Source: Microbacterium horticulturae (GTDB taxonomy: Bacteria > Actinomycetota > Actinomycetes > Actinomycetales > Microbacteriaceae). From it: 64,000 nt of DNA. The notes below the pieces were generated by a model. The model was not told where the DNA came from. It did not search any database and was given only the letters and a program-made list of their open reading frames with translations. The stretch is taken from positions 1,178,001-1,242,000 of the forward strand of contig NZ_CP119108.1 of assembly GCF_029094505.1 (NCBI RefSeq), written 5' to 3'. Below, piece after piece: positions 6,068 to 47,917 of the stretch. Each line of letters starts with the position of its first letter. The stretch's first letter is position 1. The translations under genes were made by a program, and so were the position numbers.

Positions 6068-6141
<74 letters not shown>

Positions 6142-6145
6142 CAGA

Positions 6146-8894: not shown

Positions 8895-10676
8895 TCATGG
8901 CGTGGCAGGGCGTCTCAACAGCGACTCAACCGCTGCACGATCCGCTTTGAGCTGTTGACCGTCGGGGCGCTTGGGCCAGGGGTGGAGGTCAGTGACGATC
9001 GGGGGCGCCGACCGGAGCAAGATGACCCCGGTGCCAAACGGCAACGTGCGAATGCGGTCGGGCGGCAGGATCGGTACGCGACGGATGGAACGCTGGTTGG
9101 AACGCGAGCCATGGTCACCGAGCGTGACGGAGTCGGTGAACTCGTCGCGTTCGCCGATCAGCGTGGAGAGGTCTTGAAGGTCTCGTGAGTTCGAGGCGCC
9201 TCCAAGGATGATCTTCGCGATACTGGCGTCCCAGATCGCTGCCGACTTGTTCTCAGACCACTTGTCCCGCGCCTGGGCAAGGGATTGAAGCACCGGCATC
9301 GTTGTGATCCCGGTGCCGCCACCTTCTGCCATGAGTGTGGGCAGTGAGGGTAGCGGCGCAAGGTTTCCGATCTCGTCGAGCGCAAACAGTAGCGGCGGAT
9401 CGAGCCGTGCGCCGGGTGATCGAGCAGCCATTCGGCGGGCGGTCTCGACAAGGTCTTCAACGAGAGCTGCGACGAGAGCTGCGCTGTTCCCGGCCCCAAC
9501 GCCGGTCGCCAGAAGATACAGCGTGCCACGGTCGCGGATGAAACGCTCGGGATCGAACTGCTCGCCTTCTGCCGGGCTGACAGCATCTAGCACTCTGGGG
9601 TCGGCCAGCGCCGACAATGCGAGCGAAACACCCTGCCAGATACTGTCGCGCGTGCGCGGGTCGGCGTCGAGCGTTGCCTCCAGCGAATCCGCCCACCCCG
9701 TGGCTGCCAGCGGTGAGCCCGTCAGGATGGCGACTGCCTCCGCGGCGGCTGATGGGTCGAGGGTCCATCGGAACAGCTCAGCCGGACTTCGATGATCGAG
9801 CGCGGCCGCATGTAGGAGCGCCTGCAGAGCGATGCGGGTCTTTCCTTCCCAGAACCCTCCACCCTCGACGCCGCCAGCGGACAGCTCGGTGGCCGCTGCA
9901 AGACCAGTCGCGCGAATCATCGCGGTCAACGGGTCCTCGCAGCCCCGAATAGGCGACCACCGCAGCCCAGAGGAGACGCCTTCAGCAAGATGCTGAGGAT
10001 CAAAGACGGCGACCGGACCGAACCGTTCGCGTGCGCGCATCGTTGCCGTCAGGTTGTCGGGCCGGGTCGACGTCGTCACCACTGCACCCGGCGCATCGAG
10101 AATCGCTGGGATCACAATGTGCAGGCCCTTACCTGAACGCGGCGGGCCGATGAGAAGGATCGAGTCTTCGACGCTGGCCCACACCTGCTTGCCGTGCGAG
10201 CGCCCGAGCAGGTAGCCCACGTCCGCGGGTTCTGGCTGTTCCAGTGAAGGGCGAAGCGTCGCAGCTCGGCGCAGGAGTGCCTTCGCCGACGCACTGGTTG
10301 CGACCTCGTGACTGCTGGCAGTTCCCGCGAGCCGCCGTGGATCGGTATCGACGTTGTGTGAGTGCCGACGCCAACGGACCCAAGCCCACCCGATAGCGCT
10401 GCCGAGAATGAGGAGCAGCAGTATTGCAATCGACCAGTAGAGAATTGCATTCAGACCGGGCGCCTGCAGCACCTCGGCCGGATTTGTCGGGCTGAACAGC
10501 AGGGTGACTCCGCCAGCAATCCCGACCTGAGGTTGCGCAGTGCCAGCGAGGAATGCCGCAACGGAACCCGCAGCTCGCAAGACGACGGCGACCCCGAAGA
10601 CTGCGATCAACGCGATCATCAGGAAGTTGGTCAACTCATCGCCGAAACCCCGACCCTGACCGTGTGGGGTACTCAC
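8895..10676 (-). CDS. Type IV coupling protein (TraD/VirD4-like ATPase)
   Basis: A 593-aa inner-membrane ATPase that docks DNA substrates to the conjugation channel. There are two N-terminal transmembrane stretches (about residues 18-45 and 76-102), Walker A GPPRSGKG at 177-184, and a Walker B region LLFALDEIGNLAPLPSLPTLMAEGGG followed by TMPVLQSLAQAR, typical of TraG/TraD. Length and layout are normal for actinobacterial ICEs. It overlaps the upstream hypothetical gene by 4 bases (ATGA). Confidence 0.92.
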   Translation of the reverse strand: MSTPHGQGRGFGDELTNFLMIALIAVFGVAVVLRAAGSVAAFLAGTAQPQVGIAGGVTLLFSPTNPAEVLQAPGLNAILYWSIAILLLLILGSAIGWAWVRWRRHSHNVDTDPRRLAGTASSHEVATSASAKALLRRAATLRPSLEQPEPADVGYLLGRSHGKQVWASVEDSILLIGPPRSGKGLHIVIPAILDAPGAVVTTSTRPDNLTATMRARERFGPVAVFDPQHLAEGVSSGLRWSPIRGCEDPLTAMIRATGLAAATELSAGGVEGGGFWEGKTRIALQALLHAAALDHRSPAELFRWTLDPSAAAEAVAILTGSPLAATGWADSLEATLDADPRTRDSIWQGVSLALSALADPRVLDAVSPAEGEQFDPERFIRDRGTLYLLATGVGAGNSAALVAALVEDLVETARRMAARSPGARLDPPLLFALDEIGNLAPLPSLPTLMAEGGGTGITTMPVLQSLAQARDKWSENKSAAIWDASIAKIILGGASNSRDLQDLSTLIGERDEFTDSVTLGDHGSRSNQRSIRRVPILPPDRIRTLPFGTGVILLRSAPPIVTDLHPWPKRPDGQQLKADRAAVESLLRRPATP

Positions 10677-29649: not shown

Positions 29650-29802
29650 TTAGGGTCTTGCGAAGAGGTCAGGGAGGACCTCACGAATAAGGGGGGCGAG
29701 GTAGCGGACGTTGTCGCTGCTGTAGCCGTTTTCACCGTGGTCGCAGGCCGTTGCGGGTTCAATGGCGTCGGCCATCACGTCCTCCGGGTTCGTCATGGTC
29801 AT
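29650..29802 (-). CDS. Small protein after CopB-like ATPase (50 aa)
   Basis: Its ATG overlaps the stop of the copper ATPase (ATGA, 29799-29802). The product begins MTMTNPEDVMADAIEPATACDH and ends VRYLAPLIREVLPDLFARP, without membrane segment. One Cys-Asp-His cluster could bind metal. Coupling to the ATPase suggests a linked role. Function unknown. Confidence 0.6.
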   Translation of the reverse strand: MTMTNPEDVMADAIEPATACDHGENGYSSDNVRYLAPLIREVLPDLFARP

Positions 29803-34862: not shown

Positions 34863-35036
34863 CTGCTACAGATCCCGTTTGTCGCCATCGGCCACGACCC
34901 ACGCAACGAGCTCGTGCGCGGCCAAGTTGAACTCAACGAAGACGGTTACGTGTGTGTGCAGCATCCCACCACCGCGGCAGGAACCGGCTGCGGAGCTGCG
35001 CTCGACGCGCAGCATTACCTCGCTGGGCTTGTCGAA
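34863..35036 (+). pseudogene. trxB': Thioredoxin reductase fragment
   Basis: The frame here reads [20 protein letters not shown], then [13 protein letters not shown] and [18 protein letters not shown], matching the C-terminal end of the intact trxB at 38738 ([20 protein letters not shown]...). The segment carrying the GVFAAGD motif (about 23 residues) is missing between HPTTA and GTGC. The fragment lacks the FAD and NADPH domains and cannot be functional. It is a scar of an older arsenic cluster or of the insertion of the recombinase module. Confidence 0.85.
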
Positions 35037-35491
35037 GCAGCCCTAGGTCTGGACGAAGTTGGCGTCGCATACGGCGTTCGGCTTGCGGGACGCCTGATAC
35101 GCGAACCTGCGCACCAATCCTGCTCAGGTTCATCCCCAACGAGCGCTCACTTGGCTTGCGCCGTTGGCGAGCACAATTAAGAACGGAGGTGGGGCCAGAT
35201 GTGGCCGTCGCGGTAGGGTCACTTCAGGTTGACAAAGCCACAGTCTGCGGACGGTGGAGTCATCGTGCGACGGATCGTTCGGTTCTGCACAGTTGCCGCC
35301 GACATGGCAATAGAAATGATTCATGTCTCTATTCCCGCGTCTTCGTGAGTTGCTTCCATGTGATTCAGGTGCGTCCTGCCCGCTGTATCAACGAAGCCAC
35401 GCCGGATCAAGATTCCTGACAAACCATCACGATTCCTGACGATTCGGGCGTATTCTTGATGCATGGTCAGGATTGCTGAAGTAGCGGGCTG
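35037..35491. other. Region before the recombinase trio, no gene
   Basis: About 450 bases with no convincing coding frame. It holds the direct repeat GATTCCTGAC (35409-35418 and about 35430-35439), just before the recombinase gene, and the sequence CATGTCTCTAT discussed as an inverted repeat. It may contain the left end of the recombinase module. Confidence 0.45.
35322..35332 (-). repeat. Left copy of 11-bp inverted repeat around the recombinase trio
   Basis: CATGTCTCTAT here is the exact complement of ATAGAGACATG at 38730-38740. On the minus strand it reads ATAGAGACATG followed by a small frame (ATG 35324), just as the right copy precedes trxB. It may be a duplicated ArsR operator half or a module boundary. 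Confidence 0.5.
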
Positions 35492-36571
35492 ATGAGCCTC
35501 GCTGTCGTTCGGAGTATCGGGACCGCTCGCGGGTGGCGGTCCGAGGAAGATGCTGCGGACTTTGAGCAGGAGATCATCGACCAGTACGCGCTCGCGATGG
35601 CCGCAGCTGGGCTCAGCGACGCTTACATCTCGCACTCACGAACAGCGATCTTCGAGCTCCGTTCGCACGTGAATATCCCGCTGTGGCAGGTCAAGCCCGC
35701 CGACGCGGACGCGTTTCTTGCCGGGCTTCGCCGAGCGGGTCTTGCGGCTTCGACGCGTGCGGGCAAAGCGGGCGTGATCGCCCAGTTCTTCGACTTTGCG
35801 ATCAGTCGGTATCAGGCCGACATCAACGCGCTTACCGGGTGGGTGATCGAGCAGCCCATCGATGAGTACAACCGGCAATCGGGTTCGTCGCTCGGCAAAG
35901 TCCGCGTCCCGCCCTCGGACGCGGAGGTCGACCGACTCTTCGGCGGCTGGGCGGCTTCGTTGCAGGATGAGCGGCGATTTCTCCCGGCGGCGCGGAACTA
36001 CTTCGCGGCGTCGTTGTGGCGGCGAGTCGGGCTGCGGATCACGGAGAGCACGAAACTCGATCTTCGCGACTGGCGGCCCGATCTCGGCACGCTCGGGAAA
36101 CTGCATGTCCGATTTGGGAAAGGCTCGCGCGGGCGCGGCTCGAAGCAGCGCCTGGTTCCCGCGATCAACGGTGCCGACAAGCTCATGGATTGGTGGCTCG
36201 GCGACGTGCGGCACAGGTTCGGCCCGGATTGGGATGACCCGGATGCGCCGCTGATCCCGTCGGAACGGTTCGATCATGAGCTCGGCCGCACGGGGAGGGC
36301 CAGCGACGATGTGCTCCGGCGCGGGCTGGTGCGTGCGACCGAGCGGTTTCTGCCTGCGTGGTCGGGTGATCTGACTCCGCACGTGCTGCGGCACTATTGC
36401 GCGTCGTCGCTGTATCTGGCGGGTATGGACTTGAAAGCCCTCCAAGAACTGCTCGGGCATCAGTGGCTGTCGACGACGACGCAGTACATCCACGTCTCGA
36501 GCCAGCACATCGAGGATGCGTGGGCGCACGCGAACAAGAGCGTTGAGGAACGATTCGAAGGGATGGCGTGA
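35492..36571 (+). CDS. Tyrosine recombinase (first gene of a three-gene module)
   Basis: A 359-aa tyrosine recombinase/transposase. An N-terminal SAM-like core-binding domain (about residues 25-115) precedes the catalytic domain with Arg182 in GLRITES, HVLRH (His297, Arg300, His301), His323 in LLGHQW and the nucleophile Tyr332 in TTQYIHV. All catalytic residues are present, so it should be active. It is followed after 3 bases by an XRE gene and that by an inactive-looking recombinase relative. Different from the element integrase at 6338. Confidence 0.92.
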   Translation: MSLAVVRSIGTARGWRSEEDAADFEQEIIDQYALAMAAAGLSDAYISHSRTAIFELRSHVNIPLWQVKPADADAFLAGLRRAGLAASTRAGKAGVIAQFFDFAISRYQADINALTGWVIEQPIDEYNRQSGSSLGKVRVPPSDAEVDRLFGGWAASLQDERRFLPAARNYFAASLWRRVGLRITESTKLDLRDWRPDLGTLGKLHVRFGKGSRGRGSKQRLVPAINGADKLMDWWLGDVRHRFGPDWDDPDAPLIPSERFDHELGRTGRASDDVLRRGLVRATERFLPAWSGDLTPHVLRHYCASSLYLAGMDLKALQELLGHQWLSTTTQYIHVSSQHIEDAWAHANKSVEERFEGMA

Positions 36572-36574
36572 CTG

Positions 36575-36904
36575 ATGAAGTGGAACCTGAGAGTCCAGGC
36601 CGCTGAGCGCGGCATCTGGAAGTCTGCGGAGTTGCGGCGCATGCTCGCCGCCGCTGGGTTGGAGATGAGCCAGGGCAAGATGTCGGGGCTGTGGACGGGC
36701 ACTCCGACGACGATCCGCCTCGATGATCTCGACGTGATCTGCCACGTCCTGGACTGCCAGCCGACAGACCTCCTCGTGCCCGAACCGGAAAAGGTCAGCG
36801 CGCGCACGCGACGGCTCGAGCAGCACAGCGAGGCCAACGGTTCGACACCGCGAGTGACGCCACGGTTGGGCGCGAAGGATGACCGGCCCGCCCCGCCGCT
36901 ATGA
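36575..36904 (+). CDS. Small XRE-type HTH protein of the recombinase module
   Basis: A 109-aa protein with one XRE/Cro-type HTH in an unusual short form: GIWKSAELRRMLAAAGLEMSQGKMSGLW then TIRLDDLDVICHVLDCQPTDLLVPEPEK. The last part (after residue 75) is basic and disordered. It is coupled to the next gene by an ATGA overlap. Possible roles are operon repression or accessory DNA binding at the module ends. Confidence 0.85.
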   Translation: MKWNLRVQAAERGIWKSAELRRMLAAAGLEMSQGKMSGLWTGTPTTIRLDDLDVICHVLDCQPTDLLVPEPEKVSARTRRLEQHSEANGSTPRVTPRLGAKDDRPAPPL

Positions 36905-38664
36905 GTCCGGCACGCGGTCCGAACGGGCCGCTGAGCCCGCCGCTGCCCTGCACGGGGTGCGGCGTGAAACCGGCCGCGTGGCTCCAGCCTCGCGTCGACT
37001 ACTGCTACGACTGCATCCCCGGCGGCCCCTTCGCTCCGCCGCTATGCCGCAGATGCGGATCGAGCGAGTACTACAGCCAAGGATTGTGCGCGCATTGCCA
37101 TCCGGGAAGTCCCGGCTTCATAGGGTCCTGTCGTGATTGCCTGGCCTGGGGCGTCTACCGGAATCGCAACTGGCGGTGCCCGAAGTGCCGCTGGTGGTTC
37201 AAGCACTACCCGCAAGGCGAATGCGTCTCGTGCCATCGCGACGTCACCATCGGTGAGCAGGGCTACTGCCGCCTCTGCCTGGAGACCGCCCGGATGCTGC
37301 AAGTACTCGGCGAACCGCTCGACCTCGACGCACCGCGAAAGTTCGGGGCGCAACTGTTCTTCGCCGTGATGAACGATCCCCGCAGGCCTGCCGAGAAGCA
37401 CCGGCCGATGGCGATGAGCCTGCGCGAAGCGATCCGGCTCGTCGCCGCGCCGCCGCCGGTCGCCGAGAGCACCCAGCCGGTGCTGTTCGATCTGGATCCC
37501 GACCCGGAACGGGTGCGGCAGCGCTCGAACGAGATCCGGCGGCGCGACATCACCTCCCGCACCGATCACTTCCTGTACGCCCGCGCCGCCGAGTATGCGT
37601 GGAGCAAACGGCAGACGAACCAGGTGCGGCGCACGTTGAAGATTCTCCAGCTCGTGTTCCCCGGCGCGAATCTGCACTTCCGTGCTTCCGACATTCTCGC
37701 GATGCGCCGCTACGACGATGACGGCAACATCCGCTCCACGATCGAAGTCCTGGGCGACGCCGACCTCCTCATCGACGACCGAGTGCCGACGTTCGAGCAG
37801 CTCTTCGACCGTAAGACCAGGCATCTGCCCGAGCCGATGCGCTCCCAGCTCGAACTCTGGCGCGACATCATGGCCGACGGATCGAAGACCACGCCGCGCC
37901 GTCAACCCCGCGACACGATGACCGTGAAAGGGCAGATGTACGGCATCCTCCCCGCGATCACCCGCTGGGTCGAGGAAGGCCGCACCAGCCTGACCGGGAT
38001 CAGCACTGAAGACATCCTCGACGCGCTCCCGGATGATCCGAGCCGCCAGCACACGATGATGCTCGGCTTCCGCACCCTGTTCACGATCCTGCGCGGCCGC
38101 AAGATCGTCTTCGCCGACCCGACGAAACCGATTCCGCTGCGCGGCCCCAAACGCACGATCCCGCTCCCGATGGAGAAGTCCGCGATCCGTGACGCGCTCA
38201 CCAGCCCTGACCCCGCAATCGCTCTGGCCGTCGCCCTCGTCGCTTTCCACGCCCTCACCACACAACAGGTGCAGCACGTCCAGCTCACCGATATCATCGA
38301 CGGCAGACTCCGCATGCCCGACGGCCGTACGATCCCGCTCGCCGAACCCGTGCGGGTGCGCCTGGCCGCCTGGCTCGACCATCGCGCCACGCGTTGGCCC
38401 GAGACGAAGAACCCGTACCTGCTCGTCACGATCCAGACCGCGCCGCGCCTGTCGCCACCGGGCCGGAACTTCCCCTGGAAGAAGGCCGGAGTCACCGCTC
38501 AGGCGCTGCGCACTGACCGCATCCTCTACGAGGTCGAACAGACCGGCGGCGATGTGCGACGCATCTGCGACCTGTTCGGCATCGGCATCGACACCGCCCT
38601 CCGCTATGCGCATCCCGCCCGAGTCGACCGTCCTGTAGATGACGGCGGCGACTCCGCCGGGTGA
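36901..38664 (+). CDS. Zinc-ribbon protein with degenerate tyrosine-recombinase fold
   Basis: A 587-aa protein. Residues 17-126 carry eight CxxC motifs (17-20, 35-38, 49-52, 63-66, 77-80, 93-96, 108-111, 123-126), so up to four zinc ribbons. The C-terminal half (about 225-575) follows a tyrosine recombinase layout: a core-binding-like helical part, then LVAFHALTTQQVQHVQLTDI where box I would be and QALRTDRILYEVEQTGGDVR through IGIDTALRYAHP where box II would be. The first Arg and HxxR are lost; the Tyr is kept. A non-catalytic partner of the active recombinase is the best reading. Confidence 0.8.
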   Translation: MSPARGPNGPLSPPLPCTGCGVKPAAWLQPRVDYCYDCIPGGPFAPPLCRRCGSSEYYSQGLCAHCHPGSPGFIGSCRDCLAWGVYRNRNWRCPKCRWWFKHYPQGECVSCHRDVTIGEQGYCRLCLETARMLQVLGEPLDLDAPRKFGAQLFFAVMNDPRRPAEKHRPMAMSLREAIRLVAAPPPVAESTQPVLFDLDPDPERVRQRSNEIRRRDITSRTDHFLYARAAEYAWSKRQTNQVRRTLKILQLVFPGANLHFRASDILAMRRYDDDGNIRSTIEVLGDADLLIDDRVPTFEQLFDRKTRHLPEPMRSQLELWRDIMADGSKTTPRRQPRDTMTVKGQMYGILPAITRWVEEGRTSLTGISTEDILDALPDDPSRQHTMMLGFRTLFTILRGRKIVFADPTKPIPLRGPKRTIPLPMEKSAIRDALTSPDPAIALAVALVAFHALTTQQVQHVQLTDIIDGRLRMPDGRTIPLAEPVRVRLAAWLDHRATRWPETKNPYLLVTIQTAPRLSPPGRNFPWKKAGVTAQALRTDRILYEVEQTGGDVRRICDLFGIGIDTALRYAHPARVDRPVDDGGDSAG

Positions 38665-38721
38665 ACACTCGGCGAACAACCTCCCGAACGCACCTACCCG
38701 ACTTGCCGCTTGGTTCGATGA

Positions 38722-38739
38722 ATGTCAATATAGAGACAT
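38722..38739. promoter_or_regulatory. ArsR-type operator of the arsenic operon
   Basis: ATGTC (38722-38726) and GACAT (38735-38739) form an inverted repeat with spacer AATATAGA, over the trxB start codon (38738). Likely target of the ArsR domain encoded at 41126. Confidence 0.6.
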
Positions 38740-38740
38740 G
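38730..38740 (+). repeat. Right copy of 11-bp inverted repeat
   Basis: ATAGAGACATG, exact complement of 35322-35332. It contains the trxB ATG. Confidence 0.5.
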
Positions 38741-39706
38741 TCGATGCAACAGGTGGTGATCGTCGGGTCTGGTCCGGCGGGGTATACGGCCGCGGTCTAC
38801 GCGGCCAGGGCGGGACTTTCTCCCGTCGTGGTCGCTGGCTCGGTGACCGCCGGCGGTTCGCTCATGACGACCACCGAGGTCGAGAACTTCCCGGGCTTCA
38901 CCGACGGGGTGCAGGGCCCGGACCTGATGGACGCGATGCGTGCGCAGGCCGAGCGCTTCGGGGCGCGTATCGTCTACGACGACGCGACCCGGCTCGACCT
39001 CGCAGGCGAGGTCAAGACGATCGAGACCGGCTCGGGCGAAACGTTCGAGGCGCGTAGCGTGATCCTCACCACCGGTTCCGCTTACCGCAAGCTCGGCCTC
39101 GCCGAGGAAGCTCGGCTCTCCGGTCACGGCCTGTCATGGTGCGCGACCTGCGACGGCTTCTTCTTCCGCGAGAAGGAGATCGCCGTCGTCGGCGGCGGGG
39201 ACTCCGCGATGGAAGAGGCACTGTTCCTCACGCGCTTCGCGTCGAAGGTCACGATCGTGCACCGGCGTGATGACTTCCGGGCGTCGAAGATCATGGCCGA
39301 GCGGGTGCGCGCCGATCCGAAGATCGAGGTCGCCTGGAACAGTGAAGTCGCCGAGCTCGTCGGTGAGAACGCCGTCGAAGCGCTCCGCCTGCGCGACACC
39401 GTCACCGGTGACGAGCGTGCCCTTCCGATCTCTGGCGTGTTCGTTGCGATCGGGCACGACCCGCGCTCGGAGCTGCTGACCGGGCAGGTCGATCTCGACG
39501 ACGACGGCTACGTGCTCGTCGACCATCCGTCGACCGCGACGAACCTGCCTGGCGTGTTCGCCGCGGGTGATCTCGTCGACCGCCGTTACCGGCAGGCGAT
39601 CACGGCATCGGGCACGGGCTGTGCCGCGGCCCTTGACGCGCAGCATTTCCTCGCCGGCCTGCCTGCCGACGAGACCGAGACCGAACTTCTGGAGGTGTCC
39701 GCATGA
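38738..39706 (+). CDS. trxB: Thioredoxin reductase
   Basis: A 322-aa flavoprotein that reduces thioredoxin with NADPH. FAD site VIVGSGPAGYTAAVYAARAG, redox pair CATC in WCATCDGFFF, NADPH site VVGGGDSAMEEALFL with HRRDDFRASK, and the second FAD motif GVFAAGDLVD. ATG at 38738 is in frame with a second ATG two codons on. It heads a seven-gene arsenic operon; with trxA it supplies electrons to the arsenate reductases. A truncated relative is found at 34863. Confidence 0.94.
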   Translation: MSMQQVVIVGSGPAGYTAAVYAARAGLSPVVVAGSVTAGGSLMTTTEVENFPGFTDGVQGPDLMDAMRAQAERFGARIVYDDATRLDLAGEVKTIETGSGETFEARSVILTTGSAYRKLGLAEEARLSGHGLSWCATCDGFFFREKEIAVVGGGDSAMEEALFLTRFASKVTIVHRRDDFRASKIMAERVRADPKIEVAWNSEVAELVGENAVEALRLRDTVTGDERALPISGVFVAIGHDPRSELLTGQVDLDDDGYVLVDHPSTATNLPGVFAAGDLVDRRYRQAITASGTGCAAALDAQHFLAGLPADETETELLEVSA

Positions 39707-40029
39707 GCGCGACCATCACCGTCACCGATGCCACGTTCGAGGCCGAGGTGCTGCAGTCCGACATCCCCGTCGTGGTCGACATCTGGGCGACCTGGTGCGG
39801 GCCGTGCAAGGCGATCGCACCGATCCTCGACGATCTCGCCGGCGAGTACGACGGCCGCGTGAAGATCGTGAAGCTCGACGCGGATGCCAACCCGCAGACC
39901 GCGATGGCTGCTGATGTCACGTCGATCCCGACTCTCGGGTTCTACCGGGGCGGTGAGCGCGTCGACGTGCTCATCGGCGCACACCCGAAGCCGATCATCG
40001 CGGGCAAGATTGACGAGCTGATCGTATGA
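39703..40029 (+). CDS. trxA: Thioredoxin
   Basis: A 108-aa thioredoxin with active site WCGPCK in VVVDIWATWCGPCKAIAPIL and the cis-Pro loop VTSIPTLGFYRGG. It overlaps trxB by four bases and the ACR3 gene by four bases (ATGA both), so the three are translationally coupled. It is a dedicated electron carrier for the cluster. Confidence 0.94.
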   Translation: MSATITVTDATFEAEVLQSDIPVVVDIWATWCGPCKAIAPILDDLAGEYDGRVKIVKLDADANPQTAMAADVTSIPTLGFYRGGERVDVLIGAHPKPIIAGKIDELIV

Positions 40030-41129
40030 GCACCGCAACCCAGACCCGCGCGATGCCGGCGAAGCTGTCCACCCTTGACCGGTGGCTGCCGCTGTGGATC
40101 GGGCTCGCCATGGTCGCGGGCCTCCTCCTCGGCCGCTTCATCCCCGCACTGTCCGACCTGCTCGCGCATATGGAGGTCGGTGGTATCTCGGTGCCGATCG
40201 GTCTCGGACTGCTGGTGATGATGTATCCGGTGCTGGCGAAGGTCCGCTACGACAAGGTCGCCGCTGTCACGGGAGACAAAAAGCTCCTCGTCTCATCGCT
40301 GATCCTGAACTGGATCGCAGGGCCTGCCGTGATGTTCGCCCTCGCGTGGCTCTTCCTGCCCGATCTGCCCGAGTACCGCACCGGTCTCATCATCGTGGGG
40401 CTCGCGCGTTGCATCGCGATGGTGGTGATCTGGAACGACCTCGCTTGCGGCGACCGTGAAGCGACCGCGGTGCTGGTGTTCATCAACTCCGTGTTCCAGG
40501 TCGTCGCGTTCTCGCTGCTCGGCTGGTTCTACCTCACCGTGCTGCCGGGCTGGCTCGGCCTCGACTCCCAAGGCCTGGATGTCTCGATCGGGCAGATCGC
40601 GATCAACGTGCTCGTATTCCTTGGCGTCCCGCTCGCGGCTGGGTTCCTCACTCGCTTCTTCGGTGAGAAGGCGAAGGGCCGCGACTGGTACGAGGCGAAG
40701 TTCATCCCCTTTATCGGCCCGTTCGCGCTCTACGGCCTCCTGTTCACGATCGTGCTGCTATTCGCGCTGCAGGGTGAGGCGATCACGTCGCAGCCGTGGG
40801 ACGTCGCCCGGATCGCGCTGCCGCTGTTGGCGTACTTCGCGATCATGTGGTTCGCAGGCCTCCTGCTCGGGAAGGGCATCGGCCTCAACTACGCCCGCTC
40901 GACGACCCTCGCGTTCACGGCGGCAGGCAACAACTTCGAGCTCGCCATCGCCGTCGCGATCGGCACCTTCGGCGCGACCAGCGGCCAGGCCCTCGCAGGC
41001 GTCGTCGGCCCGCTCATCGAGGTGCCCGTGCTCGTGGGTCTGGTCTATGTCTCGCTCTGGGCCGCCCGCACGTGGTTCCACACCGACCCGTATGCGGTTC
41101 CCGCCGTCACCAAATCGAGGGCATCATGA
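40026..41129 (+). CDS. acr3: Arsenite efflux transporter ACR3
   Basis: A 367-aa membrane protein with ten hydrophobic segments. Characteristic motifs: GLGLLVMMYPVLAKVRYDK, GLARCIAMVVIWNDLACGD with the essential Cys, and LAFTAAGNNFELAIAVAIG. These are typical of bacterial ACR3, which exports arsenite by proton antiport. It is coupled to trxA before and to the arsR::arsC fusion after by ATGA overlaps. Confidence 0.94.
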   Translation: MSTATQTRAMPAKLSTLDRWLPLWIGLAMVAGLLLGRFIPALSDLLAHMEVGGISVPIGLGLLVMMYPVLAKVRYDKVAAVTGDKKLLVSSLILNWIAGPAVMFALAWLFLPDLPEYRTGLIIVGLARCIAMVVIWNDLACGDREATAVLVFINSVFQVVAFSLLGWFYLTVLPGWLGLDSQGLDVSIGQIAINVLVFLGVPLAAGFLTRFFGEKAKGRDWYEAKFIPFIGPFALYGLLFTIVLLFALQGEAITSQPWDVARIALPLLAYFAIMWFAGLLLGKGIGLNYARSTTLAFTAAGNNFELAIAVAIGTFGATSGQALAGVVGPLIEVPVLVGLVYVSLWAARTWFHTDPYAVPAVTKSRAS

Positions 41130-42130
41130 CCACCACCGAGCTCTGCACACCGACCCCGACGCACGTCATCGGCGAAGACGCCGCCGATGCTGTCGCTTCA
41201 ACGCTCAAGGCGCTGGCCGATCCGTTCCGGCTGCGGATGCTGTCGGCGATCGCGACGGACCCGCGCGGCGAGGCCTGCGTGTGCGACCTCGCCGAGCTCG
41301 CCGACGTCTCCCAGCCCACCGTCTCGCATCACTTGAAGAAGCTCAAGGACACCGGGCTGCTGGCCTCCGAGCGGCGCGGCACCTGGGTGTACTACAGCAT
41401 CCTGCCGGCGCGGAAGCAGGCCGTGACCGCGCTGCTGGACGCGTTCGCGCCCGCCGCGATCGCCGACGCGCAGGCCGAGCAGGAAGACCGCGCGACGGCA
41501 CTGGCCGCCCTCGACGCGAAGGTCGAGCACCTCGCCGCCGAGCTCGCCGACGAGATGACGCACCTGAACCGCAACCTCGTCGTCACGATCGTGCGCGAGT
41601 CGTTCGCGGGTCTCGTCCGCTCGGCGAAGCTCACCCAGCATATGATCCCGCTCACCGAACGTTTCGCCCGTCAGCGTCTCGCCGACCTCACACGGGATCG
41701 CGAAACGGGGATGCCGCAGGTGCTGTTCGTGTGCGTCGCAAACGCGGGCCGTTCTCAGCTCGCCGCCGCCCTCGTCAATCAGCTCTCCGGCGGTGCGGTT
41801 GTTGCCCGGTCGGCCGGGTCGACGCCAGCGGCCGAGGTGCACCCGCACGTGCGCTCGATCCTCGCCGACATCGAAGGCGAGCAGGACGCCGCGGCCGCGT
41901 TCCCGAAGCCGCTCACCGACGACGCCGTCCGCGCCGCGGACGTCGTGGTCACGATGGGCTGCGGGGACGTGTGCCCGATCATCCCCGGCGTCCGCTACGA
42001 AGATTGGGCTGTCGGTGACCCCGCCCTCGCCTCCGAAGACGGCGTTGCGGCGATCGCCGCTGACATCGAGGCCCGCGTCCGTGGCCTGCTCGCCGAGCTG
42101 TGCGTTCCCGTCGACGGTGACGGCGCATGA
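41126..42130 (+). CDS. ArsR::ArsC fusion (repressor-arsenate reductase)
   Basis: A 334-aa two-part protein. Residues about 15-110 are an ArsR winged helix with ACVCDLAELADVSQPTVSHH, the CxC arsenite site in the recognition helix. Then comes a three-helix linker domain (about 150-200) with LNRNLVVTIVRESFAGLV, seen before ArsC in actinobacteria, and a LMW-phosphatase-like ArsC domain (about 205-330) with VCVANAGRSQLAAA (CX5R-type P-loop) and VVTMGCGDVCPIIPG. One polypeptide both senses As(III) and reduces As(V). Coupled to both neighbours. Confidence 0.9.
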   Translation: MTTTELCTPTPTHVIGEDAADAVASTLKALADPFRLRMLSAIATDPRGEACVCDLAELADVSQPTVSHHLKKLKDTGLLASERRGTWVYYSILPARKQAVTALLDAFAPAAIADAQAEQEDRATALAALDAKVEHLAAELADEMTHLNRNLVVTIVRESFAGLVRSAKLTQHMIPLTERFARQRLADLTRDRETGMPQVLFVCVANAGRSQLAAALVNQLSGGAVVARSAGSTPAAEVHPHVRSILADIEGEQDAAAAFPKPLTDDAVRAADVVVTMGCGDVCPIIPGVRYEDWAVGDPALASEDGVAAIAADIEARVRGLLAELCVPVDGDGA

Positions 42131-43341
42131 CAAGCGAGACGCGACGTGCGCCGGTGCGCGGGTCGGCGTGGGAAGTGTTCCGGGTGTTCCTGCGCCTCGG
42201 GGTGACCTCGTTCGGCGGGCCGATCGCGCACCTGGGCTACTTCCGCACCGAGATCGTGGAACGCCGACGCTGGATGGACGACCGCGCCTACGCCGACCTG
42301 GTCGCGCTGTGCCAGTTCCTTCCCGGCCCGGCCTCGAGCCAGGTCGGGTTCGGCATCGGCCTGCACCGCGCCGGATACCGGGGCGCGCTGGCCGCATTCA
42401 TCGCCTTCACGCTCCCGTCCGCGGCCCTCATGCTCGCCTTCGCCTCCGGCGCCGCCCTGTTCACCGGCACCATCGGGGAAGGCATCCTCGCCGGGCTGAA
42501 GATCGTGGCGGTCGCGATCGTCGCGCAGGCCGTCCTCGGCATGGCGAAGACACTCACCCCGGACCGGCAGCGCGCCGCGATCGCAGCCGTCGCAGCCCTC
42601 GCCGCGCTGCTGCTGGCCGGATCGCTCGGCCAAATCATGGCGATCGTCCTCGGCGGGATCGCCGGATACTTCGTCTGCCGCGCACCCGCCGCGAACACGG
42701 CGACAGCGGTGCGGTTCCCGGTGACCCGGGCCGCGGGGATCGCCGCGCTCACCCTGTTCGTCGCAATCCTGGCCGGGATGCCGATCCTCGCCGCCGTCAC
42801 CGGCAACGACAGCGTCGCCCTGTTCGATGCGTTCGCGCGGGCCGGAGCGCTCGTATTCGGCGGCGGGCACGTCGTGCTCCCGCTCCTGCAATCCGGCGTC
42901 GTCGATCCCGGCTGGGTCACGAACGCGGACTTCCTCGCCGGATACGGTGCAGCCCAGGCCGTGCCTGGCCCGCTGTTCACCCTCGCCGCTTTCCTCGGCG
43001 GCGCCGCTGACGTCGGCCCGGGCGGGGCGGCGGGGGCGGGCATCGCGCTGGCCGGGATCTTCCTGCCCGGCTTCCTCCTCCTCATCGGCGTGCTGCCGTT
43101 CTGGAACCGCCTGCAGCACCACGAGCGGGTTCAGGCCATCATGCGGGGCGCGAACGCGGCCGTCGTCGGCATCCTCGCCGCCGCCCTCTACACACCCGTG
43201 TTCACCACCGCGATCCTCACCCCGCCCGCCTTCGCACTCGCGCTGGTCTGCTTCGTGCTGCTCGTCGCGTGGAAGCTCCCGCCCTGGATCGTCGTGATCA
43301 TCGGAGCCGCAGGCGGCATCCTCGCCACCACCCTCACCTGA
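42127..43341 (+). CDS. chrA: ChrA-type chromate transporter
   Basis: A 404-aa membrane protein with the CHR family duplication: EVFRVFLRLGVTSFGGPIAHLGYFR in the N-terminal half, then VALCQFLPGPASSQVGFGIGLHRAG; the C-terminal half repeats as FARAGALVFGGGHVVLPLLQ and GYGAAQAVPGPLFTLAAFLG. This is the long bidomain ChrA form. It overlaps the arsR::arsC fusion (ATGA). Finding it in the middle of an arsenic operon suggests either arsenic-linked anion efflux or joint chromate resistance. Confidence 0.9.
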   Translation: MTSETRRAPVRGSAWEVFRVFLRLGVTSFGGPIAHLGYFRTEIVERRRWMDDRAYADLVALCQFLPGPASSQVGFGIGLHRAGYRGALAAFIAFTLPSAALMLAFASGAALFTGTIGEGILAGLKIVAVAIVAQAVLGMAKTLTPDRQRAAIAAVAALAALLLAGSLGQIMAIVLGGIAGYFVCRAPAANTATAVRFPVTRAAGIAALTLFVAILAGMPILAAVTGNDSVALFDAFARAGALVFGGGHVVLPLLQSGVVDPGWVTNADFLAGYGAAQAVPGPLFTLAAFLGGAADVGPGGAAGAGIALAGIFLPGFLLLIGVLPFWNRLQHHERVQAIMRGANAAVVGILAAALYTPVFTTAILTPPAFALALVCFVLLVAWKLPPWIVVIIGAAGGILATTLT

Positions 43342-43368
43342 CCGACCCGATCGGAAACGAGAACCCTC

Positions 43369-43791
43369 ATGTCTACTCCCACCGTCCTGTTCGTCTGCGT
43401 CCACAACGCCGGCCGTTCCCAGATGGCCGCAGGCTACCTCCGCCACCTCGCGGGCGACCGCATCGAGGTCCGTTCGGCAGGCTCGATCCCCGCGGACCAA
43501 ATCAATCCCGTCGCCGTCGAGGCGATGCTCGAAGAGGGCATCGACATCCGCGGCGAGGCCCCGAAGATCCTCACCACCGACGCCGTGCAGGACTCCGATG
43601 TCGTCATCACGATGGGCTGCGGCGACGCCTGCCCGTTCTTCCCCGGCAAGCGCTACGAGGATTGGAAGCTCGATGACCCCGCGGGCCAGGGCATCGACGC
43701 TGTCCGTCCGATCCGCGACGACATCAAACGCCGCATCCAGGAACTCATCGCCTCCCTCGAGCCCGCGAGCACCGAGGCGGCCAGCGCATGA
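43369..43791 (+). CDS. arsC: Arsenate reductase, mycothiol/thioredoxin type
   Basis: A 140-aa LMW-phosphatase-fold ArsC: P-loop FVCVHNAGRSQMAA with nucleophile Cys and invariant Arg, then RSAGSIPADQINPVAVEAM, DVVITMGCGDACPFFPGKRYEDW with the redox Cys pair and DPAG aspartate. It is the complete form of the reductase. The start follows 27 bases of gap after chrA. It overlaps the next gene by four bases. Confidence 0.92.
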   Translation: MSTPTVLFVCVHNAGRSQMAAGYLRHLAGDRIEVRSAGSIPADQINPVAVEAMLEEGIDIRGEAPKILTTDAVQDSDVVITMGCGDACPFFPGKRYEDWKLDDPAGQGIDAVRPIRDDIKRRIQELIASLEPASTEAASA

Positions 43792-44207
43792 GCGCGTCGG
43801 TGCTGTTCGTCTGCAAGAAGAACGGCGGCAAATCGCAGATGGCCGCCGCGCTCATGCGGCAGCACGCCGGCGACGCCATCACCGTCTATTCGGCCGGTAC
43901 TGCGCCGGGCGATACGCTTAGTGCCCTCGCCGAGGAAGCGATCGTCGAGGTCGGTGCGTCGATGGAGGGCGAGTATCCGAAGCCCATCGATCCCGAGATC
44001 CTCCGCAGCGTGGATCGGGTCATCGTGCTCGGCGACGAGGCGAAGGTCGCCCCGGTCGACGGCATGGCCGGAACGATCGAGACCTGGACCTTCGAAGACC
44101 AGGCTGCATCCGACGTCGGCGGCGGCGACCGCACGCGGGCGATCCGGGATCAGATCGCCGAACGCGTCCTGCGCCTCGCCAGCGAGCTCAGCGCCGCGAT
44201 GTCGTAA
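43788..44207 (+). CDS. ArsC-like LMW phosphatase with altered P-loop
   Basis: A 139-aa protein with the same fold: VLFVCKKNGGKSQMAAALMR. The catalytic arginine of CX5R is replaced by lysine (NGGKS for NAGRS). The acidic loop at WTFEDQAASD is retained. The other Cys pair of mycothiol ArsC is missing. It has the expected length and is coupled to arsC, so it is not simply decaying. It could be a reductase variant, or a regulatory or As-binding relative. Confidence 0.8.
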   Translation: MSASVLFVCKKNGGKSQMAAALMRQHAGDAITVYSAGTAPGDTLSALAEEAIVEVGASMEGEYPKPIDPEILRSVDRVIVLGDEAKVAPVDGMAGTIETWTFEDQAASDVGGGDRTRAIRDQIAERVLRLASELSAAMS

Positions 44208-44299
44208 CTCTGAACGGGAGGGCAGGAGTAGTCGCTGGCCCTCCCGTCCAGCGCGGCGGACGGCCGATGAGCCTTGCATGAGCCGAGCACGCAGTCGGG

Positions 44300-45805
44300 T
44301 CAGTGTGAGGGCAGGTTCCCGCTCAATCGTGCGTGGAAGGTTCCGCTCGCCTCGTTCAAGCCGATGATCTCGACCTCGATGTCGTGTTCGCGGTACTTCT
44401 GCTCGATTCCATCGAGCGCTGCGACGGTCGAGGCGTCCCACACGTGCGACTTCGACATGTCGATCACGACACGCTTCGGGTCGTCGGCGTACTCGAACTG
44501 GGTGGTCAGGTCGTTCGAGGACGCGAAGAACAGCTCGCCATCGACCTCATAGTGCGCCGTGTCTTCGTTAGCGCTGAAGGTGCGGGTGACGGTGGTGAAG
44601 TGGGCGACGCGGCGCACGAACAGGATCGCGGCGACGAACACGCCGATGATGACCCCGACGGAGAGGTTGTGGGTGATGAGCACCGGGATGACGGTGACGA
44701 GCATCACGATCGTCTCGCTCTTGGGCATCCGCTTCAGCGTGGAGGGTGCGATGGAGTGCCAGTCGAAGGTGAGGAACGCGACCATGAACATGATCGCCAC
44801 CAGTGCCCCGATGGGGATCAGGTTCATTATCGGGCCGAGGAACCACACCAGGATCAGGAGGAACACGCCGGCGGCGAACGTGGAGACGCGGGTGCGGGCG
44901 CCGGAGGCGCGCACGTTGATCATGGTCTGCCCGATCATCGCGCAGCCACCCATGCCACCGAAGAGGCCAGAGAGGATGTTCGCGCCGCCTTGCCCCATCG
45001 CCTCGCGGGTCTTGTTCGAGTGCGTGTCGGTGATGTCGTCCACGAGCTTCGCGGTCATCAGTGACTCCATGAGCCCCACCGCGGCCATGCCGAGGGCATA
45101 CGGGGCAATGATTTGCAGTGTCTCGAAGGTGAGCGGTACATCGGGGAAGAACGGCATCGGCGGGCCGCCGGGCAGTTCGCCGAGACCGCCGACGGTCTTC
45201 ACATCGAGGTTCAGCAGCCACACCGCGAGGGTCATCACGATCACGACCACCAGAGGCGCGGGCACAGCCTTCGTGAGCTTCGGGAAGAGCCATAGGATCA
45301 GGATGCTGACGATGATCATCGGGTACATCAGCCAGGACGCGCCGGTGAAATGCTCCAATTGGGCGACAGCGATGAGGATCGCGAGGGCGTTGACGAACCC
45401 GACCATCACGCTGCGCGGGATGAACCGCATGAGCTTGCCGACACCGAGCAGGCCGAGAACGATCTGGAAGATGCCGCCGAGGATCACGGTCGCGATGAGG
45501 TAGTCGAGGCCGTACTCGTCGGCGACCGGCCGGATGACGAGCGCGATCGCTGCGGTCGCCGCGGTAATCATCGCGGGCCGCCCACCGAGGAACGCGATCG
45601 AGATTGCCATCACGATCGAGGAGAACAAGCCCACCTCGGCCGGCACGCCTGCGGCGATCGCGAACGCGATGGCCTCCGGGATGAGCGCGAGGCCGACCAC
45701 CATACCCGCGAGGACTTCCTTCGTCAACAGCTTCGGCGAACGGAACACATCCATCACGGTCGGCCGAGGCCAGTAGCGTTCCTTGTCGCGTGCGGGCGCG
45801 CTCAT
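44300..45805 (-). CDS. SulP family anion transporter
   Basis: A 501-aa transporter with about eleven membrane segments and a C-terminal STAS domain (KRVVIDMSKSHVWDASTVAALDGIEQKYREHD). N-terminal motifs: GMVVGLALIPEAIAFAIAAGVPAEVGLFSS and GGRPAMITAATAAIALV. Substrate may be sulfate, bicarbonate or a related anion. It is divergent from a MerR gene with an operator between, and convergent with the arsenic operon. A role in oxyanion balance under arsenate stress is inference. Confidence 0.9.
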   Translation of the reverse strand: MSAPARDKERYWPRPTVMDVFRSPKLLTKEVLAGMVVGLALIPEAIAFAIAAGVPAEVGLFSSIVMAISIAFLGGRPAMITAATAAIALVIRPVADEYGLDYLIATVILGGIFQIVLGLLGVGKLMRFIPRSVMVGFVNALAILIAVAQLEHFTGASWLMYPMIIVSILILWLFPKLTKAVPAPLVVVIVMTLAVWLLNLDVKTVGGLGELPGGPPMPFFPDVPLTFETLQIIAPYALGMAAVGLMESLMTAKLVDDITDTHSNKTREAMGQGGANILSGLFGGMGGCAMIGQTMINVRASGARTRVSTFAAGVFLLILVWFLGPIMNLIPIGALVAIMFMVAFLTFDWHSIAPSTLKRMPKSETIVMLVTVIPVLITHNLSVGVIIGVFVAAILFVRRVAHFTTVTRTFSANEDTAHYEVDGELFFASSNDLTTQFEYADDPKRVVIDMSKSHVWDASTVAALDGIEQKYREHDIEVEIIGLNEASGTFHARLSGNLPSH

Positions 45806-45866
45806 TCTGCCTCCCAGAGAGGTGCGGGAAAATAGGGTGACGGCGGTCGAGGTCGGAGCCCGCCAA

Positions 45867-45897
45867 ACCCAACTCTACCGTTACGTGAGGGTTGGGT
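45867..45897. promoter_or_regulatory. MerR-family operator
   Basis: ACCCAAC (45867-45873) and GTTGGGT (45891-45897) are exact complements, separated by 17 bp with further inner symmetry. The layout, a palindrome centred in a long spacer, fits MerR-family activator sites. It stands 26 bases before the merR ATG and 61 bases from the sulP start. Confidence 0.65.
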
Positions 45898-45923
45898 GCC
45901 AAATCGAGGCAGAGGAGTACCCG

Positions 45924-46289
45924 ATGGCAGGAACGATCCATATCGGCGAGGTCGCTGAGCGCACCAGCCTGTCGCTGCGCACCCTCCGCCACTACGACGA
46001 GATCGGGCTCGTCTCCCCGAGCGACCGCACCAGTGGCGGGTTCCGCCTCTACACCGACGCCGACGTCGAGCGGCTCCTCCTGATCCGCCGGATGAAGCCG
46101 CTCGGGTTCTCCCTCGACCAGATGGGCGAAGTCCTCGCCGCTGCTGACGCACTGGCGGATGATCCGTCAGACAGCGCCGCGCGCGCAGCGCTGGATACGT
46201 TCGTGACCGACGCAGAGGAGCGTCGCGAGAAACTCGCGAAACAACTGGACGCCGCCGACGAACTCATCGCGCGCCTCCGCGACGTATAA
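45924..46289 (+). CDS. MerR family transcriptional regulator
   Basis: A 121-aa regulator: IHIGEVAERTSLSLRTLRHYDEIGLVSPSDRTSGGFRLYTDADVERLLLIRRMKPLGFSLDQMGE (N-terminal winged HTH), then a long coiled-coil helix with EERREKLAKQLDAADELIARLRDV. There is no C-terminal Cys/His loop, so it is not a mercury or copper MerR and is closer to small-molecule sensors. It is probably the regulator of the divergent sulP gene. Confidence 0.88.
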   Translation: MAGTIHIGEVAERTSLSLRTLRHYDEIGLVSPSDRTSGGFRLYTDADVERLLLIRRMKPLGFSLDQMGEVLAAADALADDPSDSAARAALDTFVTDAEERREKLAKQLDAADELIARLRDV

Positions 46290-46327
46290 GCCTGCGGCAG
46301 ATGCACGCCCGGCCCAAGTGTTCACCG

Positions 46328-46362
46328 GTGGGGTTGCATGTTCGCGGAACATGCAACCCCAC
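46328..46362. terminator. Perfect 16-bp hairpin at the cargo/backbone border
   Basis: GTGGGGTTGCATGTTC (46328-46343) pairs with GAACATGCAACCCCAC (46347-46362) with only 3 bases between. It sits between two genes that face it from opposite sides (merR and the VirB4-like ATPase), so it can terminate both. It also marks the edge of the metal cargo. Confidence 0.75.
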
Positions 46363-46402
46363 ACCTCAGAAACCATGGCCTGAACCCGCTTCTTCCGGCG
46401 AT

Positions 46403-47917
46403 TTAGTCTTCAGGAATCGTGAACTTGCGGGTTTCGCTCGTCATTCGGCTGGTGGTATCGAAAAGTTCCAGCTCTCCGGGGTGTAACTGGTGTTGGCAAA
46501 CGAAGGAACGGTCCTTGATGCGCCAGAGTCCTTGGCCCACGCCGAGCCCGGGCAGCAACCTCTGCTCGGTGCCGGTAAGCCCGAGCGCTCTCGCAGTGGC
46601 TCCGAGCTGATCGGATTCCTGCCGGTAGATGATTCGCGTCTCGGCGTTAGCGAGAAGGCTGCTTGCCAGCGCTCGCATCGCGGAGCCCTGGTCACCGACA
46701 TTCTCCAAGTCGGTCAGCTTGTGGAAGATCAACATGTTCGCGATCCCGTAGTGGCGGGCGAGCCGCCAGTGCGCATCCATCCGACGCAACAACGCCGGAT
46801 GAGACATGAGGCGCCATGCCTCGTCGTAGATGCACCAGCGCTGACCACCGTTGGGGTCGAGTAGGGCGGATTCCATCCAAGCCGACGAACAGGTCATGAG
46901 GACCGAGGTCAGAGTCGAGTTCTCTGTGACTCTCGATAGGTCAAGAGAGATCATCGGTAGTGACGGATCGAAACGCACTGTCGACGGACCATCGAAGAGT
47001 CCGGCGAGGTCACCGGCGACAAGACGCCGAAGTGCATGCCCGACGAGACGCCCGTCTTCAGCGAGGCGCCCATCCGGATCGGCCTGCTCTGTCGGGGTGA
47101 GGATGTGTTCGACAATCATTGGCAGGATCGGTACATCGTTGCTGCGAACGACCCCGGTCAGAGCAGTGTCGATCGCAGTGTGTTCCAAAGGCGTGAGGGG
47201 GCGCGTCAGAACCGTTTCGGCGAGTGCGCCGATCAAGTCGCGTCGTCGAGCGGCGACCGTGGATGCCCAGGTCTCCTCGCTCATTCCGGCGGGTCGGTAG
47301 CCTTCGTCGAGAGGATTGAGCCGAGCGGCAAGCCCATGACCGAGCACGATCGCCCGCCCACCCACAGCTTCAGCGATCGCAGTGTGCTCGCCCTTCGGAT
47401 CGCCGGGGACGTAGACGCGACGACCGAACGGGATCGAACGTGTGTAGAGGCTCTTAGCCAAGCTGGATTTTCCGGAGCCGACAATGCCTGCGAGCACGAG
47501 GTTCGGGGCGGTGATGAGGCCGCGCGCGTAGAGCACCCAGGGGTCGTAGACGAAAGATCCCCCGGAGTACAGATCCTGACCAACGAAGACCCCGTCGGAT
47601 CCGAGCCCACCTTCAGCCAAGAATGGGTACGCACCCGCAAGGGTTGCCGAGGTGTCTTGATGCCGTGGCAGACGAAGCCTTCCGGGCGAACGCAGCTGAG
47701 CTGGTCCCGGTTCACCAGTAGGCGAAATGTATGTGGTTGCCCGACGCTCAGCCAGATCCGCGGCGTACTTTGCGCGGGATGCCTGATGCTCAGCCCTCAG
47801 TTGCTCCGCTTGCAACTTCGCGGCAGCCTGCCTGCGCTGCTTGCGTATGCGCCGCTTCTCGGATGCTGGAGCGACGAGGACCGCAGTGTGCAGGCGCTCG
47901 GCATTGTTGCGGCTCAC
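46403..47917 (-). CDS. VirB4/TraE-like conjugation ATPase
   Basis: A 504-aa ATPase that powers type IV secretion. A coiled-coil-like basic start, then Walker A GIVGSGKSS at 144-152, Walker B RWCIYDEAWRLMSHPALLRR with the following VirB4 signature, and RLARHYGIANMLIFHKLTDL. It lacks the N-terminal half of classical VirB4, which may be supplied by SCO6880 at 49610. It restarts the ICE backbone after the cargo. Confidence 0.9.
   Translation of the reverse strand: MSRNNAERLHTAVLVAPASEKRRIRKQRRQAAAKLQAEQLRAEHQASRAKYAADLAERRATTYISPTGEPGPAQLRSPGRLRLPRHQDTSATLAGAYPFLAEGGLGSDGVFVGQDLYSGGSFVYDPWVLYARGLITAPNLVLAGIVGSGKSSLAKSLYTRSIPFGRRVYVPGDPKGEHTAIAEAVGGRAIVLGHGLAARLNPLDEGYRPAGMSEETWASTVAARRRDLIGALAETVLTRPLTPLEHTAIDTALTGVVRSNDVPILPMIVEHILTPTEQADPDGRLAEDGRLVGHALRRLVAGDLAGLFDGPSTVRFDPSLPMISLDLSRVTENSTLTSVLMTCSSAWMESALLDPNGGQRWCIYDEAWRLMSHPALLRRMDAHWRLARHYGIANMLIFHKLTDLENVGDQGSAMRALASSLLANAETRIIYRQESDQLGATARALGLTGTEQRLLPGLGVGQGLWRIKDRSFVCQHQLHPGELELFDTTSRMTSETRKFTIPED

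Follow-up and report, generated by a model that had tools for sequence, protein, structure and literature searches.

A three-gene tyrosine-recombinase module from Microbacterium horticulturae that probably drives a transposon to the 3′ end of a conjugation ATPase gene

A 64,000-nucleotide stretch of the Microbacterium horticulturae genome (contig NZ_CP119108.1, positions 1,178,001 to 1,242,000; this whole stretch is called the window, and coordinates refer to it) carries a module of three genes, which encode a tyrosine recombinase (gene 1), a small XRE-type protein (gene 2) and a long protein that joins arrays of CxxC motifs to a degenerate recombinase domain (gene 3). We conclude that this module is very probably the recombination apparatus of a site-specific tyrosine-recombinase transposon that homes to the 3′ end of a conjugation ATPase gene. 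The module belongs to an element of 11,112 bp (35324..46435), which abuts the native part of a gene for a VirB4-like conjugation ATPase (46436..47917, - strand; outside the element). The three genes had been described before in a reading made without database searches (the sequence-only reading); what it observed is confirmed overall, and its interpretation finds partial support.

The extent of the element was read from copies with different left flanks. In Microlunatus parietis (locus L007) and in a metagenome-assembled genome of Homoserinimonas (L008), the DNA is >99.3% identical to the window from 35323/35324 rightwards, and left of this point the DNA of the three loci is unrelated. The identity spans both the module and the ars-type cargo behind it and stops in the last codons of the ATPase gene; the copy in L007 has the same length as that in the window. 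The left end (35324..35345, + strand; common form TGTCTCTAGACCCGCATCTTCC, window form TGTCTCTATTCCCGCGTCTTCG) is conserved against 11 distinct left flanks. Elements 77-82% identical with similar ars-type cargo occur in Leucobacter, Cellulosimicrobium, Agrococcus, Propioniciclava and others. Judged by these alignments, the element is real, discrete and recently mobile. The module had earlier been thought to have moved next to an ars operon; the 11,112-bp element in fact contains both, with the operon as its cargo, and elsewhere the module occurs on its own or with other genes next to it. A shorter unit of 3.4 kb, ending after gene 3 at an inverted copy of TGTCTCTAT (38730-38738), was considered and rejected, because the >99.3% identical copies run on through the cargo to the ATPase gene. 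Units consisting of the module only do exist elsewhere (L003, L050 and L052).

The right end (46403..46435, - strand) lies at a fixed point at the end of the ATPase gene, so that the element in the window supplies the last ten codons of that gene (ETRKFTIPED in translation) and its stop. In 15 of 15 distinct junctions with a right-end sequence (R-AAA or R-TTC, then CCCGC), this sequence starts exactly 27 nt from the start of TTYGAYAC; it was sought only in the 34 nt after that point. The spacing holds whether or not a native stop precedes the junction: in other targets it does, and the element in the window provides the stop itself. Duplicate junctions were kept outside the 15, three loci (L072, L073 and L086) were set apart as element-less, and six loci without TTYGAYAC were left unclassified. 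The module lies on the ATPase contig for nine of the 15 junctions (the window, L007, L008, L010, L011, L013, L014, L020, and L069 with L099), module and ATPase gene are linked by coordinates for L022/L127, and the remaining junctions rest on the right-end sequence alone. Only the ATPase side is conserved among targets, insertion has one orientation, and in the filled loci readable at this point it is the right end of the element that meets the ATPase gene.

Unoccupied relatives allowed the insertion to be judged to the base. When the flanks of L007 are joined and compared with the unoccupied relative L074, they align at 99.75% over 2,010 bp with 0 gaps. A different element in L010, about 80% identical to that of the window over 6.8 kb, sits at the same base of the same integrative and conjugative element (ICE), and its joined flanks match L074 at 99.72% over 1,810 bp, again with 0 gaps. 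For L022 and the empty locus L076, the alignment of the joined flanks crosses the junction at 91.8% identity and has 9 gaps. In the cases that allow an exact judgement, insertion therefore brings in the element with neither loss nor duplication of target bases. In uninterrupted backbones (L041, L044 and L047) the ATPase gene is followed by about 0.6 kb, seemingly with a short gene, and then by the coupling-protein gene, which homologues of the target gene adjoin and which lies inside the examined flank of 19 of the 29 best ATPase loci, that of the window excluded. Searched against Pfam, the ATPase of the window gives nothing at E ≤ 0.01; its counterparts at the equivalent position of L003, L004 and L053 give weak DUF87, TraG P-loop or AAA_10 matches below the cut-off. 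Taken together, the filled and exact empty sites mark the element, as far as alignment can, as site-specific and mobile. The junctions compared show that elements with fixed ends insert in one direction, 27 nt after the start of TTYGAYAC, at the 3′ end of the VirB4-like ATPase gene of actinobacterial ICEs and, in conjugative plasmids, at the end of the corresponding gene.

The module travels as a unit. Gene 3 has at least 654 relatives in one protein search and at least 1,573 in another with a Streptomyces member; it matched 90 of 72,556 plasmid records and is rare in genome samples, being present in 9 of 392 genomes drawn from the order and in 7 of 396 drawn from the phylum (the window's own genome included, fragments counted). 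Of the 37 loci that have gene 3 at full length (taken as a match over 400 residues; the identical loci L001 = L009, L017 = L018 and L006 = L098 counted separately), 36 show matches to both partner genes upstream of it in the same orientation, among them L057 (two pieces) and L090 (contig end) with a partial gene 1 match; the exception is L012, where gene 1 was lost through deletion. The association is therefore not due to chance. A full-length gene 3 is not solitary, its C-terminal half has a predicted recombinase fold and empty sites exist, so that none of the three outcomes that would have refuted the sequence-only reading came about. Over 23 loci, pairwise identity in gene 1 tracks that in gene 3 (r = 0.97, the pairs not being independent). 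The ATPase gene occurs in 7 of 8 genomes with gene 3 versus 58 of 383 others of the order (Fisher p = 1.8e-5, the samples of 396 and 392 genomes being treated as one), and in four of the eight (G117, G247, G261 and G392) gene 3 or a piece of it lies within 4 kb of the ATPase gene on one contig. Distant conjugative plasmids of Arthrobacter, Streptomyces sp. NBC_00334 and Pseudonocardia have module-only units at the corresponding position, a plasmid of this kind from Paenarthrobacter has a like neighbourhood, and pTC1 and Pimelobacter have the module together with other genes. A plasmid of Streptomyces sp. NBC_01201 holds two copies, 99.7% identical over 3,826 bp, whose flanks differ and whose right-side sequence is similar; the right side is thus the conserved target side in the Streptomyces clade as it is in the conjugation-target clade.

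All three genes are on the + strand, with a gap of 3 bases between genes 1 and 2 and an overlap of 4 bases between genes 2 and 3. Gene 1 (35492..36571, 359 amino acids) matches PF00589 (E = 4e-17) and has a complete active site: R182, K210, H297, R300 and Y332 are identical in 23 of 23 module loci compared, and H323 is kept in 22 of the 23. Gene 2 (36575..36904, 109 amino acids) is an XRE-type helix-turn-helix protein matching PF13443 (HTH_26, E = 2e-15). Gene 3 (36901..38664, 587 amino acids) has no Pfam, NCBIfam or PHROG family at E ≤ 1, and gene 2 likewise has none in NCBIfam at that threshold. The gamma-mobile-trio is a system that we met through an NCBIfam model only, GmtZ, and gene 1 scores far below its cut-off (E = 0.11, 10.4 bits against 600), which places the module outside it. 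The strand arrangement, the active site of gene 1 and the short XRE protein, all pointed out in the sequence-only reading, are borne out by these matches and by the conservation across module loci, and so are the eight CxxC motifs of gene 3 by its close relatives.

We then compared gene 3 with 73 close relatives picked for diversity and with 51 relatives from a more distant Streptomyces-type clade, 124 sequences in total. The eight CxxC motifs provide 16 cysteine columns, of which 15 are invariant in 73 of 73 close relatives and the remaining one is kept in 72; the Streptomyces-type clade has four CxxC motifs. Structure prediction gave a confident tyrosine-recombinase fold for residues 306-586, as had been suspected for the C-terminal part, with a predicted core-binding and a predicted catalytic domain; the VIA-align structure comparisons likewise covered mostly residues 307-586. 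In the alignment register, the position of the first catalytic Arg is Thr453 (Thr in 63 of 73 sequences of the window's clade, Arg in 48 of 51 of the Streptomyces clade). The HxxR motif reads Q534-A-L-R537; its His is missing from all 124 sequences, with Gln instead in 64 of the 73 close relatives and Glu in 48 of the 51 of the Streptomyces clade. R537 is kept in 73 of 73 close relatives and 45 of 51 of the Streptomyces clade, and all 124 sequences have a Tyr at the position of the nucleophile (Y569). The claim that gene 3 lacks the Arg and the HxxR of the active site thus stands for the first Arg and the His, but not for the second Arg, and the Tyr is retained. The N-terminal part, predicted alone with 12 close sequences, yielded no usable model of the CxxC region (predicted local distance difference test score 39.7). 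A sequence profile search of the PDB with gene 3 returned weak matches to lambda integrase (E ~0.002) and chance matches to designed proteins, and a search of viral contigs with the gene 3 alignment gave 30 pattern matches and no confirmed relative.

Near-palindromic 13-mers lie at both ends of the element. Site 1 (TCAAGATTCCTGA, 35407..35419, + strand) matches the pattern TCANGAWTCNTGA, site 2 (TCACGATTCCTGA, 35427..35439, + strand) follows 20 bp after it, and an imperfect site 3 with one mismatch to the pattern (TCAGGATTGCTGA, 35467..35479, + strand) lies 60 bp after site 1. Another 13-mer stands at the right end (46410..46422, - strand), the third and last place of the pattern in the 3.65-Mb genome; all three are inside the element, and a control pattern had 0. 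Of 11 related left ends, nine contain between one and three exact copies that start in the first 150 bp. Palindromic sites before the operon and at the far end would suit a dimeric XRE protein.

From this anatomy we propose the following division of labour. Gene 1 would cut and exchange the strands. The XRE protein would bind the 13-mers before gene 1 and at the right end, and through binding at both places could control expression of the operon and help to pair the ends. Gene 3, with CxxC arrays that look zinc-binding and a degenerate domain, would recognise the target beside the right end and complete the synaptic complex with gene 1. The transposon would in this way enter a gene needed by conjugative elements and leave it unbroken, its cargo travelling with the vehicle. 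A predicted relative, P0227, reads as a fusion of an XRE protein to gene 3 and points to joint action of the two, unless the reading is an artefact. The earlier suggestion that gene 3 is a target-selecting or architectural subunit is reasonable. For the selector role itself we tentatively favour, at a little less than an even chance, the view that gene 3 is derived from a recombinase, has mostly lost catalysis, has gained zinc arrays, reads the 3′ end of the conjugation gene and directs the active recombinase there.

The invariant Y569 and the near-constant R537, together with the first Arg retained in most of the Streptomyces clade, would also fit if gene 3 were a second, unconventional recombinase subunit that cleaves one strand in a heterotetramer with gene 1, as in Tn554 or the strand-biased circularizing integrative elements (SEs); some relatives also carry the names recombinase or integrase in their sources. 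The loss of the HxxR His throughout the alignment and the Thr at the first Arg position in most of the window's clade speak against such a subunit, which we rate as possible but less probable than a selector. It is unlikely that gene 1 acts alone as a conventional integrase on a short attB at the ATPase 3′ end, with genes 2 and 3 as a repressor and an excision or accessory factor. Gene 1 does have every catalytic residue, and tyrosine integrases usually integrate at gene 3′ ends, such as those of tRNA genes or mnmE; but no repeated core was seen at both junctions, one target side is conserved, and gene 3 is larger than gene 1 (587 versus 359 amino acids), is predicted to fold as a recombinase and has diverged in parallel with gene 1. 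Finally, that the module is a fixed part of conjugative elements, for instance a dimer-resolution or regulatory unit beside which ars genes were inserted by other means, is very improbable: the same interval between ATPase and coupling-protein genes is occupied in several plasmids, but the exact-junction empty sites contradict it, as do the unoccupied relatives, the near-identical copies in differing contexts and the different elements at one base of one ICE.

Several observations weigh against the homing transposon as described. Its mobility is read from sequence comparison alone, no excision, circle or transposition having been seen; the roles given to genes 2 and 3 are drawn from anatomy alone; and the empty site of the element in the window is deduced. 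Seven of the 10 filled sites (the window, L008, L011, L013, L014, L019 and L020) have no close empty match among the loci compared; an alignment crosses the site of L011 at about 73% and is rich in gaps, and for the remaining six there is none that crosses. The exact 13-mer is missing from two of the 11 left ends (L017 and L022) and was not seen in the Arthrobacter-type left ends inspected. In G218, gene 3 is not near the ATPase gene, and G352, which has gene 3, is missing from the list of genomes with the ATPase gene. Relatives at 35-38% identity adjoin pilus-type (Tad) genes (L005 and L054), and the Streptomyces clade sits elsewhere than at the ATPase gene; the conjugation target therefore belongs to one clade and not to the whole module family. 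In the three element-less loci L072, L073 and L086, some 25 bp that resemble a right end (TCCCCGCAGGGTCACGAATCCTGA and similar) lie at most 2 bp from the target point, with the coupling-protein gene following, and the 3′ end of the ATPase gene of pNOCA01 (L112) carries such a sequence of the pTC1 type, the module of that plasmid lying about 14 kb away in a Tad-type cluster. The model does not account for these right-end-like sequences; for those in L072, L073 and L086, an excision scar, a partial site and the site of another element are candidates.

Other sequences were also seen at the target position. In L042, L065, L119 and L124 the same position of the ATPase gene holds sequences that look like the right ends of yet other kinds of element (AAAACCTAGATGTTC in L065 and L124, for example), and more distant modules adjoin the ATPase position in L042 and in the genome of L065. 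One Leucobacter genome (G789) has two different ATPase genes with the same right-end sequence (L118 and L126), which is expected of two insertions of one element. A likeness of the target (CCCGCATGACC) to the left-end arm was dropped, as the two are oriented differently with respect to the cut and the likeness is a consequence of the coding sequence.

The one-sided choice of target recalls Tn7 with TnsD, which inserts beside the 3′ end of a conserved gene, glmS, read from one side and left unbroken, by DDE chemistry; the element described here uses tyrosine-recombinase chemistry, and its target is a gene of conjugative elements. Closer relatives in chemistry were compared through the portions of the cited papers on which we drew. 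Tn554 and Tn554-like elements are also site-specific, use several proteins, one of about 350 amino acids and one far longer, and occur on actinobacterial plasmids (PMC3414803); Tn554 has two recombinases with the RHRY motif and TnpC (PMC10214605). Like Tn554, the element inserts site-specifically without target duplication (0 gaps over the 2,010 bp of L007 and L074), whereas its long partner is degenerate, without the first Arg and the HxxR His, and bears CxxC arrays, its small partner is an XRE protein (PF13443), and its target is the conjugation ATPase gene. The Tn554-like pair reported for pNOCA01 (PMC3414803) is most likely the recombinase frames at 110-113 kb and not the module at 24-27 kb.

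SEs share with the element an operon at one end, several recombinase-related proteins, imperfect terminal inverted repeats and few target sites (PMC10214605). They encode IntA, Tfp, IntB and Srap, of which IntA and IntB are RHRY enzymes and Tfp has a core-binding domain without RHRY, whereas the module has one RHRY enzyme and an XRE protein. A 6-bp footprint and strand-biased circles are further features of SEs. GInts likewise have an end operon followed by cargo, gene-end targets and a degenerate partner, GinC, without the first Arg (PMC5385486). Their ginABCD operon differs in having four genes, for three integrases and GinD, against three with one XRE, and the genes named as their targets are chromosomal; the main text of that paper does not contain the word zinc. 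By analogy, GinC and Tfp, recombinase-like with incomplete motifs, would be the nearest functional parallels to gene 3. RIT elements resemble the module in three adjacent overlapping genes and terminal repeats, but in the archetype each of the three proteins retains the catalytic Tyr and is 315-410 amino acids long (PMC3414803, PMC10214605, PMC8138268), and the second gene here is an XRE gene and not a third recombinase. The recombinase classes of PMC8138268 include multi-recombinase elements of other make-up. Membership of Tn554, SEs, GInts and RIT thus fails on composition; mechanistic likeness is plausible. Literature searches, which covered open-access papers only, returned no description of the three-gene module, and the available portion of a paper on actinobacterial ICEs (PMC3218068) makes no mention of such an element. 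Altogether, composition and empty sites support the earlier proposal of a mobile system distinct from Tn554 and RIT: the elements form a new family of tyrosine-recombinase transposons that encode several proteins, and they can be compared with Tn554, SEs and GInts but differ from these in make-up and target.

The cargo of the element in the window comprises, on the + strand, an open reading frame for thioredoxin reductase (38639..39706; Pyr_redox_2, trxB in the annotation of the L001 homologue), thioredoxin (39703..40029; WCGPC in the translation, annotated trxA in L001) and an arsenite transporter (40026..41129; PF01758 SBF, E = 2e-54), probably of the Acr3 type. These are followed by an ArsR regulator fused to an LMWP-type arsenate reductase (41126..42130; PF01022, PF01451), a chromate transporter (42127..43341; PF02417, E = 5e-76), an LMWP-type arsenate reductase (43369..43791; PF01451, annotated ArsC in L001) and a second LMWP-type protein (43788..44207; PF01451). 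A SulP-type anion transporter (44300..45805, - strand; PF00916 and STAS) and a MerR-family regulator (45783..46289, + strand; PF13411) complete the set. Elsewhere, L020 shares just about 3.3 kb with L016 and with L019, and the similarity stops soon after the codon of the invariant Tyr of gene 3 (~9731 in the numbering of L020). The C-terminal tail of gene 3 and the cargo therefore differ together, and cargo may be exchanged at a point just after this codon.

The vehicle of the element in the window appears to be an ICE in a tRNA-Pro gene. An integrase gene (6338-7570) adjoins this tRNA gene (6068-6142), whose 3′ end recurs with one mismatch 80 kb further along (G000:C1:1264346); the tRNA gene and this copy are the probable ends of the ICE. 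A gene for the coupling protein of a type IV secretion system (8895..10676, - strand; PF02534, PF12696) marks the other side of the insertion hotspot, outside the element. Between it and the element lie about 24 kb of further DNA (~10.7-35.3 kb), which include genes for a P-type metal ATPase (29799-31931) and a DUF305 protein (33044-33649), and several insertions may thus have accumulated at the hotspot. Immediately beyond the left end lies a remnant of a thioredoxin reductase gene (34878-35030), which covers residues 268-341, shares 53% identity with the cargo trxB and may be left over from an earlier insertion.

A conserved conjugation gene would serve such a transposon as a docking site that favours transfer and spares the vehicle, and docking there would explain how arsenic- and chromate-type resistance cargo moves between actinobacterial families. 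The end and target sequences allow elements of this kind to be found in genomes by pattern. A three-protein system with one-sided target choice and a degenerate partner would also make target selection in Tn554-, SE- and GInt-like elements testable. If gene 3 is indeed the selector, the module would represent TnsD-like, one-sided targeting built on tyrosine-recombinase chemistry, in a transposon family specialised in homing to the conjugation machinery.

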